Shown here piece after piece: positions 16,921 to 22,095 of a stretch of DNA of 22,095 nucleotides. Numbering within the stretch: the first letter of the stretch is position 1; each line of letters opens with the position of its first letter. The notes beneath the pieces are model-generated. The model was given only the letters and a program-made list of their open reading frames with translations, was not told the DNA's origin and did not search any database. Made by a program: the position numbers and the translations under genes. Source of the stretch: a virus; IMG/VR virus record IMGVR_UViG_3300033571_009783, positions 1-22,095 of that record; one strand, written 5' to 3'.

Positions 16921-18975
16921 TTAGAAACCATTGTCTGTTGTACTGGCCTTGAACAACTGTTCCAGTCTCTGGCGTATCTTGTCACGCATCTCCTGTTTGA
17001 ACTGTTGATTAATCAACTGTTCTTCTCTGTTTGCAGAACCATTTTCTGTTTCTGTTTCTGCGGCTTCAATGGCACCACTCATTGGTGCATTTGAATCTGT
17101 GATTGGTCCACCTGTGATCCAAGCATCGCAGGTTCTGTTGCTGGCGCACTTGAAGTCAAATGCTTCGCAGTAACCTAGGTCACCTGCGGCAACTGTATCC
17201 CACTCGCTGCCTGTTGCTCCACCCGCGGCTAAGCCAGTGTCAATGCACTGTAGCATCTTGGAGGTTTGGATAAATGCAGCACAATTGCCACAGCGTGATT
17301 GCTTGGCTTGATCAACTGTAACACTCCACTTATCTGCTAGGCGCTCCCAGAACTCATCGTTGGGTTGTGAGGGATTTAGAGGACCATATGCTGCACCATC
17401 GATAGCACTTTGACGATTCTTAAGATTTACGCTTACGTCTTGTGTTGCTACTGGGCATGCAGCACCCGTGGCATATTCTTCGGCTTCCATGCCTTCATTG
17501 GCATATTCTTCTTCTTCGGATTCATCCTCGGACTCGCCGGTTAGTTCTTCATATTTTTGCAGTGTCTGCATCATTAGATCAACTTCTTTGAGTTCGATCT
17601 CTAGTGCGCGACGATTGTATTGACGATTGTAACTGATACTGAAATCTTCGGGCTTGATCATGTTCAACCAATCAAACCAAATGTCCCAAAGTTTGGCTTC
17701 ACCATTCTCTAAGTTGGTGGCCTTACGACGAATCATTGCGCTGAGTTTGTCATCAAAGATTTCAATTTGTGCGCCACTGTTGGCAGCACGGATTAGGTCT
17801 TCACTGCGCAACATGGCAATCTGACTTAGTTTTTGCACCATGTTGTCAATTAGATCGCGTATCTCGCTGATAGCATCTAGTGGTGGTGCTTTGAATTCGT
17901 ATACATGGGTTGGTGTGCCTGTTAGGCTGGCCTGCACCTTAACCAATGCACCTGGCTCTGCACCCACTTGACCATCATTGAGTTGGTGTGTATTCTCGTC
18001 GACCACAAGTGTGGGATGACTTCCGTAAGCAATAGCACTGTAAATTTCTGCGTTATGGCTGTAGATACTGCGTTGGATCTGTGCAATGTCTTGAATAACT
18101 GTAGTACCAATGTTATTGTATACTTTGGTGCTTTGATAGAATGTCTTAACAGGAATGTAACCTAGTTCATTGATTTGAACAATGCGGAAGATACCGTCAT
18201 CTAATTGTTCCAATGCCGGACTATCCACTGGAGGAGCATAATCTTTGCGGTTTTCACCTTTGCCCACAAACACAGTTTCTACTGTGGCGTCTGTGAAGTA
18301 TCTATACACAGTGTGAAGATCTGAATCATCCACACGCACCACAAGGCGGCGTAGTTTTAGATTGCCATCAACGTCAAAAAAGTATTCCCAGTTAGTAACA
18401 TCTAATGGAGTATGAATTCTCCATTTTGGAATGTCACTGCCCACTGGCTTGATGCAACTTACATGGCATACACCAAAGATGGTTGTATACATGTCTACCA
18501 GGCTCATGAATTCATTGATTGATTCACCTTCGCCCGAAACATCACTTAAGAATTCTTCTACTTCAGGTGTTTCTGGTAATGTACGCTGTGGTGGATTGCG
18601 GAATAGGATCGCATTGTATTCTGCTACAATCAGTTTAACAAAATTGTATAATGCAGTGTTGTCTAACTTCTCACCATAGAAGTTACCAGTGGTGCTGACA
18701 TCTTGACCATAGCGCACAGCATTTTCACTGTTGCTGTAAGATGTTTTAGCAATTTGACTTTTGTATTTTGCAACTATGCTGCCATCACTGGCAAGGTCAT
18801 AGGTGTTTATTGTCTCACTGGGAGTGGCCAAGTCCGCTGCATAAGCGCGAAGATACTTGGCTCTTTTGTATTCAGTGCCGCCCAACCAACTGTTGTAGCA
18901 CACTAACCAATCACTGCTATAACGATCGTATAGGCTATGATTGGTCGTAATAAAGTTTATATAGGGGTCAGCCAC
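16921..18975 (-). CDS. Portal protein with Cys-rich C-terminal extension (684 aa)
   Basis: It starts at GTG 18975 with an AGGAG box 8 bases upstream. The core (about residues 30-480) is portal-like: YKRAKYLRAYAAD, LYNFVKLIVAEYNAILFRNPP, YFFDVDGNLKLRRLVVRV, a helix-rich stem TTVIQDIAQIQRSIYSHNAE, IRDLIDNMVQKLSQIAMLRS and KLWDIWFDWLN. An acidic linker (ESEDESEEEEYANEG, about 485-505) is followed by an extra domain with six Cys at 562, 565, 577, 603, 610 and 616 (CGNC, LQC, LGYC, DFKC, RTC), ending in AWITGGPI. This resembles the Cys pattern of HiPIP-like iron-sulphur modules and is discussed under findings. The far C-terminus is a charged helix (EEQLINQQFKQEMRDKIRQR). The portal forms the DNA channel and packaging motor docking site. 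Confidence 0.88.
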   Translation of the reverse strand: MADPYINFITTNHSLYDRYSSDWLVCYNSWLGGTEYKRAKYLRAYAADLATPSETINTYDLASDGSIVAKYKSQIAKTSYSNSENAVRYGQDVSTTGNFYGEKLDNTALYNFVKLIVAEYNAILFRNPPQRTLPETPEVEEFLSDVSGEGESINEFMSLVDMYTTIFGVCHVSCIKPVGSDIPKWRIHTPLDVTNWEYFFDVDGNLKLRRLVVRVDDSDLHTVYRYFTDATVETVFVGKGENRKDYAPPVDSPALEQLDDGIFRIVQINELGYIPVKTFYQSTKVYNNIGTTVIQDIAQIQRSIYSHNAEIYSAIAYGSHPTLVVDENTHQLNDGQVGAEPGALVKVQASLTGTPTHVYEFKAPPLDAISEIRDLIDNMVQKLSQIAMLRSEDLIRAANSGAQIEIFDDKLSAMIRRKATNLENGEAKLWDIWFDWLNMIKPEDFSISYNRQYNRRALEIELKEVDLMMQTLQKYEELTGESEDESEEEEYANEGMEAEEYATGAACPVATQDVSVNLKNRQSAIDGAAYGPLNPSQPNDEFWERLADKWSVTVDQAKQSRCGNCAAFIQTSKMLQCIDTGLAAGGATGSEWDTVAAGDLGYCEAFDFKCASNRTCDAWITGGPITDSNAPMSGAIEAAETETENGSANREEQLINQQFKQEMRDKIRQRLEQLFKASTTDNGF

Positions 18976-19019: not shown

Positions 19020-19063
19020 ATCATTACTATTTATGTCTTTGATGTCAAAAGGCGGTATTTATA
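19020..19063 (-). promoter_or_regulatory. Promoter region upstream of portal: TATAAATA and TTGACA boxes
   Basis: Within the 83-base leader before the portal lie a perfect TATAAATA (19063-19056, overlapping the stop of the upstream small gene), a perfect TTGACA (19048-19043), CATAAATA (19035-19028), and AATGAT (19025-19020) at 17-base spacing from TTGACA. The first and third fit the T4-type late consensus (NATAAATA). The TTGACA/AATGAT pair fits a host sigma70 promoter with a weak -10. Either could drive the head gene transcript. Confidence 0.5.
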
Positions 19064-19226
19064 GTCTAATTACGGCTGAATCAACTACATCATCAGGCAA
19101 TGGCTGTGCAATCACAGGCACACGCGGTCCTTTATACACTGCGTTCTTGCGTGCTTGATTTCTCCGAGTTCTCTTTTGCTGCAATCTCTTTTGCCTCTGC
19201 AATCCTTTTGCGGATAATTTCTTCAT
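19059..19226 (-). CDS. Small highly basic protein, nested start (55 aa)
   Basis: This is a short gene overlooked by length cut-offs. The start is ATG 19226 (an in-frame ATG at 19229 is too close to the box), with GGAGG 6 bases upstream. The first 95 bases overlap the preceding gene in another frame. The N-terminal half is very basic (KGLQRQKRLQQKRTRRNQAR) and the C-terminal half is hydrophobic/acidic (VPVIAQPLPDDVVDSAVIRL). The layout suggests a nucleic-acid-binding segment followed by a structured tail. No family is recognised. It directly precedes the portal leader. The strong ribosome binding site and coherent composition make it likely real. Confidence 0.6.
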   Translation of the reverse strand: MKKLSAKGLQRQKRLQQKRTRRNQARKNAVYKGPRVPVIAQPLPDDVVDSAVIRL

Positions 19227-19422
19227 CATATACCTCCATTATGCATTCTGCGTTGTATGATCCTGTCTTAAGACCATAGTATCTTACGATTCGTTGTGCA
19301 TCATCTTGATCACGGCAAGGCCATGCTCGCACAACATGATATAATTGTTTTGTCTTAGGCCATATATAATCAAATTTGGCCTGCACATACAATTCACCGT
19401 TCTTTAGGTTCTGTAACCACAT
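19132..19422 (-). CDS. Unknown protein with long C-terminal helix (96 aa)
   Basis: I chose ATG 19422 because AGAGGAA lies about 8 bases upstream; the longer frame (to 19476) has no comparable signal. The N-terminal 65 residues look globular and contain GELYVQAKFDYIWPKTKQLYHVVRAWPC and DDAQRIVRYYG, a beta-strand-rich small domain. The C-terminal part is a charged helix (EEIIRKRIAEAKEIAAKENS). The gene overlaps the 49-aa gene by 29 bases and the basic 55-aa gene by 95 bases. I do not recognise the family. Its place in the operon between terminase and portal suggests an accessory role in packaging or host takeover. Confidence 0.6.
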   Translation of the reverse strand: MWLQNLKNGELYVQAKFDYIWPKTKQLYHVVRAWPCRDQDDAQRIVRYYGLKTGSYNAECIMEVYDEEIIRKRIAEAKEIAAKENSEKSSTQERSV

Positions 19423-19543
19423 CTTTAGGTTCCTCTTTTGGTTTCTTACCAAATATTTTGTCCCAGTTATCTTCAAACTGTTTCTTATCTTCTATGGGCC
19501 GCGGCCGGCTGCCCTTACCGCCGTGTGTGGCTTTATACCCCAT
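19394..19543 (-). CDS. Small protein with WDKIFG motif (49 aa)
   Basis: ATG 19543 lies inside the end of the upstream glycosyltransferase gene (11-base overlap), with a GGAGAA box. The sequence runs MGYKATHGGKGSRPRPIEDK, then an acidic/aromatic stretch DNWDKIFGKKPKEEP. Small phage proteins with G-K-G-x-x-x-R-P near the start and W-D-x-I-F-G near the end are, from memory, common in tailed phages near terminase or portal genes, with unknown function. The C-terminal Lys/Glu tail is likely disordered. A second protein in this window shares the WD(K/R)IFG motif. Confidence 0.65.
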   Translation of the reverse strand: MGYKATHGGKGSRPRPIEDKKQFEDNWDKIFGKKPKEEPKDVVTEPKER

Positions 19544-20243
19544 GCTGTTCTCCTAAACGCATCATTGTTTGTAATCTGTTGGCACTGCCTCTGCTGCCAT
19601 GCACATGCACTGCACATGCTTGGGCTATGTCAATGCCGTTAAAACTGTTATTAAAATTTATGTCATTGCTGAGGTATTGATAGGCTAATACAGGCTGTAA
19701 GAAGTCCGCAACATTGCTGCTTTGACTCCACTGCATGGCATTGTAGATCACTTGCTCCGAATCCCAACGATTCCAATCAAAGTTTTCTAACATACGAAAA
19801 CCCAAATCCCATGTGCTCTCACTCATGGTCTGTGGATAGTAGCGTATGCCACAGTTGAAGAAGTGTGGTAGATCTAGTTGGTAATGATGATCGTAGGTGG
19901 CAGTGGGTTCAGTGTAGTTGAACATGCTGAAATGGTTTGTGGTGCCAAACACAGTGTAGGCATTAACGAACACTACATCTAGGTCTGCGTAAAGTATGTT
20001 GTGACCTTCACGCCATAGATCATATATTTCTTTAAAGTTCTCAACAAACACAGTTCTAATATTATCCGCAGTGCCGGTGAACACATGCACACCATCTAGA
20101 TCCACAATATGCTGCCCCGCAGTTGCAGTCATGATCTGTTGCATTTGATCATAATTGGCCACAAGGTTGGCTTCACCAGATCTATTGTTATACCAACGGC
20201 TGTGATCCTGCACAGTGTAATTTTTAGTTACTAATATGTTCAT
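19533..20243 (-). CDS. Glycosyltransferase-like protein, GT-A fold (236 aa)
   Basis: The protein has the layout of a nucleotide-sugar transferase of the GT-A type. It has NILYADLDVVFVNAYTVFG with a DLD metal/sugar-nucleotide motif at residues 87-89, then FFNCGIRYYP (128-137) and RWDSEQVIYNAM (159-170), the usual acceptor-side D-x-EQ motif. A late His motif, VHVHGSRGS (212-220), is consistent with the second metal ligand. Its length is short but complete for the catalytic domain, and there is no membrane segment or signal peptide, so it should act in the cytoplasm. The donor and acceptor are unknown. The gene overlaps its neighbours on both sides, so it is part of the late operon and not a loose insertion. 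Activity is inferred. Confidence 0.7.
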   Translation of the reverse strand: MNILVTKNYTVQDHSRWYNNRSGEANLVANYDQMQQIMTATAGQHIVDLDGVHVFTGTADNIRTVFVENFKEIYDLWREGHNILYADLDVVFVNAYTVFGTTNHFSMFNYTEPTATYDHHYQLDLPHFFNCGIRYYPQTMSESTWDLGFRMLENFDWNRWDSEQVIYNAMQWSQSSNVADFLQPVLAYQYLSNDINFNNSFNGIDIAQACAVHVHGSRGSANRLQTMMRLGEQHGV

Positions 20244-20400
20244 TGCTGTTTACTGGATTGTTCTTGCGTGCTAACAGTCGATAGCGTCGTACACGGCGAT
20301 ATAATTCACTGTTGCTTAACATATGTTCAATGCGTTGATCATCACTGAGGCTGTGCCACTGTTGACGCCAACTTATACCGCGTTTAATTGTTGTAGTCAT
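20224..20400 (-). CDS. Small unknown protein (58 aa)
   Basis: Start ATG 20400 overlaps the methyltransferase stop by 17 bases; the longer reading from 20460 would lie deeper inside that gene without a better ribosome site. The protein is basic and helical: SWRQQWHSLSDDQRIEHMLS, then SELYRRVRRYRLLARKN. It ends inside the start of the glycosyltransferase gene (20-base overlap), so translation of the three genes is probably coupled. The only upstream box is a weak GTGGA. The function is unknown. It may be a small partner of the two enzymes on either side. Confidence 0.55.
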   Translation of the reverse strand: MTTTIKRGISWRQQWHSLSDDQRIEHMLSNSELYRRVRRYRLLARKNNPVNSNEHISN

Positions 20401-21001
20401 TATTGTCCACAAAGATATAATTTTCGCCAACTTGCTCACTGAGGCGATAGTTCCAATCAACCAATGTTTTTAAAATATTGTTGCGGATCAAAAATGGTGT
20501 AGCATTCAGTATCTCAATCATCAACACTGGGCGTGATCCAAGGATAGTTTGTTCTGCGCCACGCAATACCTGTAACTCATGACCTTCGACATCAATCTTA
20601 ATTAGATCGACATTGGTTAAACCATAACTGTCCAGTGTAGCACAAGGAATGGTTATGCCTGAATCTGTAACACGGCTCATGCCACTGTTGGCAATCGCAG
20701 GACTAAAGTTAACAGTACCCCGATGATCACTGAGTGCAACTGTGTGTATGGTGCAGCGGTTATTGAATACATTTACTGCCAAACACTGTGCGTGCTCACT
20801 GTGTGCTTCAAATGCAACCACAGCATCGAAGTCTAGAACCAAACGCTGACTCCAATAGCCCACATGTGCGCCTATGTCAACTGCAACACGATTGTTATGC
20901 ACATGATCCATCACACGATTGTAATCAAATTGTTCATATCCAGGTCGCGTGGTAAAAAATTCATCACCATCAGGTAACCACATACCATTACTCTTTTTCA
21001 T
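20384..21001 (-). CDS. FkbM-family methyltransferase (205 aa)
   Basis: This is an S-adenosylmethionine-dependent methyltransferase of the FkbM class. The SAM-binding motif VAVDIGAHVGYWS spans residues 39-51, followed by VVAFEAHSEHAQCLAVNV (61-78). The family signature IKIDVEGHELQVLRGAE lies at 134-150, then RPVLMIEI. FkbM proteins usually O-methylate sugars or polyketides. I chose ATG 21001 (MKKSNGMWLPDG...), with AAAGG upstream and a 14-base overlap with the previous gene. The frame reaching 21064 lies mostly inside that gene and is less likely. In context with the glycosyltransferase downstream, a role in modifying a glycan is the best inference. A metabolic or protein substrate is not excluded. 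Confidence 0.82.
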   Translation of the reverse strand: MKKSNGMWLPDGDEFFTTRPGYEQFDYNRVMDHVHNNRVAVDIGAHVGYWSQRLVLDFDAVVAFEAHSEHAQCLAVNVFNNRCTIHTVALSDHRGTVNFSPAIANSGMSRVTDSGITIPCATLDSYGLTNVDLIKIDVEGHELQVLRGAEQTILGSRPVLMIEILNATPFLIRNNILKTLVDWNYRLSEQVGENYIFVDNNDYNN

Positions 21002-21212
21002 CTTCAGTGCCTTTATTTCCAAATATTCTATCCCAACCATCTTTGTAAGCATCGCTGGCGCCACCTACTCTGCTGCCACTGCTCACACTGCCCCGTCCAC
21101 TGAAACCTTCGCTGATATCGCGTGCTTGTTTAAGCACTGGCGTTTCATTGATTATCTTTTCATTCTTTTTCCATTGTGCAGAATTTTTTGGTGGTGGTGG
21201 TGCGCCCTTCAT
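20988..21212 (-). CDS. Small protein with WDRIFG motif (74 aa)
   Basis: ATG 21212 overlaps the upstream stop (ATGA). The protein starts MKGAPPPPKNSAQWKKNEKI, has a Gly/Ser-rich low-complexity middle (GFSGRGSVSSGSRVGG), and ends in DAYKDGWDRIFGNKGTEDEKE. The WDRIFG segment matches the WDKIFG of the 49-aa protein at 19394-19543. No enzymatic motif is visible. The Pro/Gly/Ser content suggests a mostly disordered protein with one short binding motif. It follows the terminase operon start, so an accessory packaging or capsid assembly role is possible. Confidence 0.6.
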   Translation of the reverse strand: MKGAPPPPKNSAQWKKNEKIINETPVLKQARDISEGFSGRGSVSSGSRVGGASDAYKDGWDRIFGNKGTEDEKE

Positions 21213-21418
21213 GCATGTGCTCCTGTAGGTACTGGCATATAGTGTGTGGTCATGTGTATGACTCTGGTGCCAGGTTGTGTGTGTTGATCTAAGTGTTCTT
21301 CAGCCAATTGTTTGCAGTGTTCTAGGTTTGAACCTATGAAACTTTTAACATAAGCATCTCCCTCAGGTGGGAAAATCTTTAACATCATTTTTACTGATCT
21401 GTGTAGTATTTTGCTCAT
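21209..21418 (-). CDS. Small unknown protein (69 aa)
   Basis: The ORF overlaps the terminase stop (ATGA at 21415-21418) and the next start (ATGA at 21209-21212), so it is translationally coupled on both sides. It encodes MSKILHRSVKMMLKIFPPEG, then AYVKSFIGSNLEHCKQLAEEHLDQ and a beta-like end RVIHMTTHYMPVPTG. It is a small mixed alpha/beta protein with no recognisable family, membrane segment or signal. Confidence 0.6.
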   Translation of the reverse strand: MSKILHRSVKMMLKIFPPEGDAYVKSFIGSNLEHCKQLAEEHLDQHTQPGTRVIHMTTHYMPVPTGAHA

Positions 21419-22095
21419 CGGTGCATTACCTTGCCCATTTGTCTATATGATTTACCACTGCTCATGCTGTTAAGCATTTTAAGTGGATAGTTCTTGTGAA
21501 CCAAATATCTCAGTGCGTCTGCCATATGGTCATAACCACTGTCTTTGTCAGGCACTCGTGTGTCGGGCTTGTATACATACTTGTGCATGACTTCGCGTAA
21601 CCGTTTACATTTTGGATCAACTAATAAATTGCGTTGACCCGATCCATTGCACAACAAGGCGTTTACGCTGGCAATGGTATCTGCCACCGGTGGATTGGCT
21701 GCATCTGTGATTACTTTGAATCCGGCATTGTGTAGAATAATGTGATCACTGACACCGCCACTGTTGGTGTTTAATCTTTTGCCGGTAGCATCTGGATACA
21801 TGAATATGGGTCGTTGATATCCATAGCGTGTTCTTATTTCTGCACACATCTCGTTGGTATTGCTGCTGTGTATTTCTATTTCATCAAATACATGCAAACC
21901 TGCAGCAGTCTTTGTAGCAATAACACATACCAGCGGCGTGACGTTGAAATCAATTCCGCAATGTATAGGTGTGCCAGCATCAATGCCTGGATGTGGTACC
22001 ATGTTTGCTTCTGTGTAAGAATAAAATATCACACCAGCATAGTTTACAAACTTGGCTTCAAACTCTTGTTCAAACTCACGCTCACCCATGTCGCG
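21415..22095 (-). CDS. Terminase large subunit, C-terminal nuclease part (5' end missing)
   Basis: The frame stays open to the right edge, so the ATPase half lies outside the window; the Met at 22089 is internal. The visible part is the RNase H-like nuclease domain that cuts DNA during packaging. Counting from the internal Met at 22089, it has HCGIDFNVTPLVCVI (first acid, D47), IFMYPDATGKRLNT (second, D100) and the C-terminal GYDHMADALRYLV (D187, D191), the usual DH-x-x-DAL-R-Y motif. Other family marks are LHVFDEIEIHSSNTNEMC and VDPKCKRLREVM. The segment before, EREFEQEFEAKFVNYAGVIF, is the usual link from the ATPase domain. The following genes overlap it by ATGA. Confidence 0.92.
   Translation of the reverse strand, partial: RDMGEREFEQEFEAKFVNYAGVIFYSYTEANMVPHPGIDAGTPIHCGIDFNVTPLVCVIATKTAAGLHVFDEIEIHSSNTNEMCAEIRTRYGYQRPIFMYPDATGKRLNTNSGGVSDHIILHNAGFKVITDAANPPVADTIASVNALLCNGSGQRNLLVDPKCKRLREVMHKYVYKPDTRVPDKDSGYDHMADALRYLVHKNYPLKMLNSMSSGKSYRQMGKVMHR

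Follow-up and report, generated by a model that had tools for sequence, protein, structure and literature searches.

Only a few systems are known in which phages glycosylate virions or surfaces. The serotype-converting gtr clusters of temperate phages consist of the flippase GtrA, the bactoprenol glucosyltransferase GtrB and the membrane protein GtrC, and cell-surface glycan pathways typically have FkbM enzymes and sets of a sugar epimerase and a C-methyltransferase. FkbM enzymes act in the known cases on sugars or related hydroxyls, and glucosylation of phage DNA is also known. Virion glycosylation, affecting capsid and tail proteins, has been described for the mycobacteriophages Che8, Corndog and Myrna (PMC12363180), and a glycosyltransferase together with a methyltransferase has been read likewise as virion glycosylation in Rhodococcus phages (PMC13313380).

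The stretch analysed here (the window) is a virus contig of 22,095 bases that encodes a lambda-like siphovirus structural module with terminase, portal, capsid, tape measure (Tape_meas_lam_C) and Phage-tail_3 proteins. An FkbM-family methyltransferase, a 58-aa ORF and a glycosyltransferase (GT) all lie on the minus strand, with the terminase large subunit on one side and the portal on the other (Table 1). FkbM overlaps the 58-aa ORF by 17 bases and the 58-aa ORF overlaps the GT by 20 bases, as the initial annotation had described, although it had missed p49 at the 3' end of the GT. Both FkbM and GT are considered real genes because their homologues at 31-59% identity stay open across many contigs; a promoter scan did no better than chance. 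We suggest, with roughly even confidence, that FkbM and GT form a two-enzyme sugar-decoration module within a variable-gene hotspot, in which sugar transfer would be followed by O-methylation, preferentially on a virion acceptor, and which would be mobile between phages. The locus shares a phage-encoded glycosyltransferase with the mycobacteriophage systems, but belongs to uncultured phages of another lineage. Like the gtr clusters, it consists of phage genes with a predicted effect on a surface glycan; however, neither a GtrA flippase nor GtrB nor a membrane GtrC was recognised in the window interval, which hence does not qualify as a gtr cluster.

Table 1. Genes of the terminase-portal interval of the window and its two borders
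Feature	Position	Strand	Evidence
Terminase large subunit, C-terminal part; upstream hotspot border	21415..22089	-	PF17289 7.8e-07, phrog_10250 2.2e-28
p74, small conserved gene adjoining FkbM upstream, 14-base overlap	20988..21212	-	tblastn hits, 52 loci
FkbM-family methyltransferase, 205 aa	20384..21001	-	PF05050, phrog_8156, TIGR01444, motifs, homologues in same interval
58-aa basic protein	20224..20400	-	phmmer hits in L131 and L058, iterated profile
GT-A-fold glycosyltransferase (GT), 236 aa, clade I of unnamed family	19533..20243	-	AlphaFold, Foldseek, conserved residues over 24 clusters
p49 (GGKGSRPRP...DNWDKIFGKK), 49 aa, overlaps GT 3' end	19394..19543	-	tblastn hits, 52 loci
p114 homologue, small conserved interval gene; 96 aa from ATG, 114 aa from upstream TTG	19132..19422	-	tblastn hits, 13 loci
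p56, small conserved gene, lysine/arginine-rich	19059..19229	-	tblastn hits, 16 loci
Portal protein; downstream hotspot border	16921..18975	-	phrog_145 1.3e-32

The methyltransferase clearly belongs to the FkbM family, in accordance with the initial annotation, since it matches the curated models above their cutoffs (PF05050, 2e-16, 61 bits against a cutoff of 22.7; TIGR01444, 6.8e-24, 84.9 bits against 37.7) as well as phrog_8156 (5.7e-30). Its SAM motif (DIGAHVGYW at residue 42) and FkbM signature (IKIDVEGHE at residue 134) are both intact, and it differs from other members of the family solely in its recurrent pairing with the GT family. Because the FkbM tree is poorly resolved, we compared these enzymes by pairwise identities. 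The nearest homologues (56-59% identity) come from L065, L078 and L174, related phages that carry them in the same interval; no GT of the window's family was found there. Identity to the FkbM enzymes beside the nearest relatives of the GT is only 31-42%. The window FkbM thus most resembles the FkbM already resident in its phage family, and the FkbM-GT pair therefore looks assembled in the window phage. Among 80 loci checked after a scan with FkbM, none had a family GT; as the GT table used for scoring covered the loci known at that stage, and the search patterns missed the FkbM of the UvdE locus described below, this result shows only that FkbM without a family GT is common.

The GT could not be assigned by sequence searches. 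No match was found in Pfam, PHROGs, NCBIfam, PDB sequences, 50,697 phage records or GTDB genomes; in Pfam nothing appeared at E values up to 10, which leaves the protein outside GT8 (PF01501), and PF03407 was weakly matched by two of 16 family members (best E 0.025). Likewise, tblastn searches of named phages gave nothing for the GT or for three relatives, neither the GT nor the portal led to a host or prophage in GTDB, and the window GT on its own retrieved no relatives from viral contigs. We therefore used the portal as an anchor, which gave 80 related loci, three of them encoding GT homologues in the same interval; an alignment of these first homologues recovered further relatives from metagenomic virus contigs, giving 24 clusters at 90% identity. 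The family had hence been missed by the standard libraries and by isolate phage records, and it was metagenomic contigs that revealed it.

An AlphaFold model built from a 16-sequence alignment shows a GT-A fold (pLDDT 92.6, pTM 0.90), in agreement with the GT-A-like enzyme previously proposed; it replaced a single-sequence model that was useless (pLDDT 38.3). Foldseek returned 209 PDB matches at E <= 0.001, of which the best 50 are glycogenin, GT6 or GT8 enzymes, with glycogenin (GT8) and the GT6 alpha-1,3-galactosyltransferases ranked highest. These enzymes share with the window GT the fold (E about 5e-06, TM about 0.5-0.6), the DXD motif, an asparagine-glycine turn and a C-terminal histidine motif, but sequence identity is only 9-14% and the Pfam GT8 match is absent. 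In a viral structure library, the top match comes from an uncultured Caudovirales phage; this protein is uncharacterised, shares 33% identity and is probably of the same family. The next matches are nucleotide-diphospho-sugar transferases and family 8 GTs. The conserved motifs of the window GT are DLD (87-89), FNCG (129-132), WDSEQ (160-164) and HVHGSR (213-218). Two DLD triplets are present, and it is the one at 87-89 (ADLDVVF), not that at 48-50, that lies in the conserved active-site motif. Across the 24 clusters D89, N130 and Y135 are invariant, and H213, H215, S217 and R218 are conserved wherever covered. The last Asp of the DXD motif is retained in all 24 clusters and the first in 14.

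The family falls into two main clades. Clade I comprises 13 clusters including the window and carries DLD, FNCG and WD[S/C]EQ, while clade II mostly carries GPD, FNAD and WNTEQ; three deep-branching members (L151, L153 and L155) have intermediate or variant motifs. In contrast to the GT8 and GT6 enzymes, the first Asp of DXD is missing from clade II, and an Asp instead stands two residues past the conserved Asn, in place of G132, an apparent shift of a single acidic residue. Clade II need not be inactive, because metal-independent GT6 enzymes with altered DXD motifs are known (PMC3961637), and the switch may point to another donor.

Members of both clades are found in two unrelated settings, the siphovirus terminase-portal interval and a UvdE-hydrolase locus that belongs to a phage lineage with larger genomes (contigs up to 92 kb). 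In 8 of the 13 clade I clusters, the first enzyme gene met upstream of the GT is FkbM. At the UvdE locus FkbM directly precedes the clade I GT in seven sequence clusters (L140, L159, L161, L164, L167, L171 and L173), overlapping or abutting it with nothing in between, and in L160-L162 it is fused to a sulfotransferase domain. For instance, the ORF at L160:5409-6722, which immediately precedes the GT, joins FkbM to a Sulfotransfer_2 domain (0.00011) and so links the partner enzymes by a natural fusion. Other clade I members have an upstream Methyltransf_24 enzyme (L169) or an upstream sulfotransferase that is itself preceded by a Methyltransf_24 enzyme (L166 and L113); only L158 and L163 (2/13) have no methyltransferase within two genes upstream and no sulfotransferase. 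In clade II, an epimerase and a C-methyltransferase (Methyltransf_13/14 domains) are followed by the GT both in the siphovirus interval (L070, L143 and L156) and at the UvdE locus (L144, L146, L149 and L157). A C-methyltransferase directly precedes the GT in no clade I member, and does so in the clade II members with readable upstream sequence in both settings. The deep-branching L153 also has a C-methyltransferase; its cluster contains two tandem copies of the GT family (L153:1506-3016) together with C-methyltransferase-like, FkbM-like and epimerase-like genes.

The partner type thus follows the GT clade rather than the setting, although the loci share ancestry and the association is therefore not a count of independent events. 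In the GT tree, the window member nests in a group otherwise composed of clade I members from the UvdE locus (95/96), and a single clade for all siphovirus GTs is rejected (p-AU 4e-66), which indicates that the GT has moved between phage settings. We consider the methyltransferase-GT partnership real. It seems unlikely to us that FkbM and GT are instead independent cargo with different substrates that became neighbours by chance, since this fits poorly with the overlapping or abutting FkbM-GT pairs of seven clusters in an unrelated locus and with partners that track the clade in both settings. The points in its favour are that FkbM occurs without the GT in the three related phages named above, that the GT occurs without FkbM in the same interval (L113, L070, L143 and L156), that a resident small gene separates the two in the window, and that the window FkbM is of local origin. 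The proposed unit of sugar transfer and methylation is hence upheld as a recurrent partnership, but not as an obligatory one, as the genes also occur singly.

The third gene does not belong to this unit. Its product is basic (pI 11.2), as previously stated, and matches small proteins in L131 (1.8e-4) and L058 (1.2e-3) by phmmer; since relatives exist, the ORF is probably a gene. An iterated profile, the later rounds of which are partly circular, places its family (W..L...H.LSNSE.Y) in more than twelve related contigs that lack both FkbM and GT, so the family is not specific to these enzymes. No other locus was found to contain all three genes, and the FkbM-GT pairs of the UvdE locus lack the 58-aa protein. 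The idea of a long-standing three-gene unit is consequently abandoned, and from its distribution we read the 58-aa protein as a small protein resident in the window's phage family.

A survey of 58 terminase-portal intervals (47 clusters) shows that p74, p49, p114 and p56 recur while the remainder is variable, with cargo consisting mainly of epimerases, methyltransferases, glycosyltransferases and sulfotransferases. Among 64 cargo proteins scanned, some of which match several models, we found NAD-dependent epimerases (8), Methyltransf_11 (10), Methyltransf_24 (5), C-methyltransferase domains (3), Sulfotransfer_2 (2), Sulfotransfer_1 (1) and GT8 (2). Such a richness in methyltransferases raises the chance of FkbM and GT becoming adjacent by accident, and makes the hotspot a place to look for more phage sugar-modifying genes. 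The products of p74 and p49 share a C-terminal tag, (Y/F)xDxWDxIFGxK, encoded at 21047-21021 and 19477-19451 (-), and cargo genes begin just past a tag of this type in several relatives. The idea that the repeated IFGKK-coding tags guide cargo insertion was examined and not established.

Based on fold and motifs, the GT would be a soluble and probably metal-dependent GT-A enzyme that uses a nucleotide sugar as donor and transfers its sugar to an acceptor. Inserted with it as a module into the hotspot, FkbM would then O-methylate this sugar or a neighbouring one of the same glycan, as their recurring partnership suggests; we only infer that they share a substrate, since both also occur apart and the window FkbM differs from the FkbM of the GT's relatives. 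The acceptor may be a phage virion protein, a target we favour weakly because the two enzymes seem to be soluble, lack an accompanying partner for membrane export and are encoded with the head genes. Such a target would agree with the capsid and tail glycosylation of mycobacteriophages (PMC12363180) and with the interpretation of the Rhodococcus phage genes (PMC13313380). In bS21 phages judged late-stage, an FkbM-domain gene is among the most transcribed, alongside the capsid gene (PMC9723584). The expected expression with virion genes is, however, not obligatory, because the FkbM block in L065 and other sugar-gene blocks in L079 and L083 run opposite to terminase and portal, which weakens the argument from co-expression.

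The same strand reversals would suit a serious rival, namely that the module acts late in infection to decorate a host surface polysaccharide, which would keep released or incoming phages from binding the doomed cell or its debris. FkbM and the epimerase and C-methyltransferase sets fit surface glycan pathways, and the FkbM of L140 weakly matches Vibrio cholerae RfbT (2.4e-05, below the curated cutoff), an O-antigen methyltransferase. We nevertheless find this possibility less likely than a virion target, given that the neighbours of the pair showed no membrane glycosyltransferase, flippase or polyprenol-phosphate enzyme, that strongly hydrophobic segments are absent from FkbM, GT and the small proteins around them (no 19-residue stretch above 1.22, Kyte-Doolittle), and that the window pair is placed with the head genes. 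Modification of the phage DNA with glycosylated and methylated bases against host nucleases seems highly improbable: it has a precedent in phage DNA glucosylation, and DNA methylases are found in the same interval of some relatives, but no gene for modified-base synthesis was recognised within the window, which is part of a genome, the GT fold is of the glycogenin kind, and the known FkbM enzymes use sugars or related hydroxyls.

Returning to a virion-decorating module, pairs of this kind would move between unrelated phages. The clade I GT would mostly act with a methyltransferase or sulfotransferase working at or after transfer, and the clade II GT would use a dedicated donor sugar, built by a C-methyltransferase usually together with an epimerase. 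As such a pair is also found in a phage lineage unrelated to that of the window, it appears that phages exchange small kits with which a surface is decorated with modified sugars. More broadly, and tentatively, we propose that these GTs make up an undescribed phage GT-A family whose two active-site types, DLD/FNCG and GPD/FNAD, each go with their own set of sugar-modifying genes. Unrelated tailed phages would swap these sets as cartridges for glycan decoration, so that related phages come to differ in their surface sugars. Phage glycan decoration itself is already known; the new part is the GT family and the rule that links clade to partner. As the active-site type is tied to the partner enzymes, the two clades are predicted to transfer different sugars, which makes the donor specificity of these GTs directly testable.

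Several other features of the window were observed. The portal contains a cysteine-rich insert (CGNC..C..GYCEAFDFKC..C; residues about 505-640, 17480-17060 (-)) that is present in the portals of L056 and L058 and absent from those of L059, L060 and L002. It gives no match to Pfam HiPIP and is 58% identical to a protein annotated as 'high potential iron-sulfur protein' and encoded beside capsid proteases in the Actinomycetia phage DSL-LC01. A GNAT-like acetyltransferase (phrog_1249, 4.2e-17) lies among the tail genes at 8534-8076 (-). A glycine-rich protein at 4937-3672 (-) (Gly_rich_2, 0.00013) and an asparagine/threonine-rich ORF of 933 aa at 2801-3 (-), which runs past the contig end, are probable tail-tip or fibre proteins.
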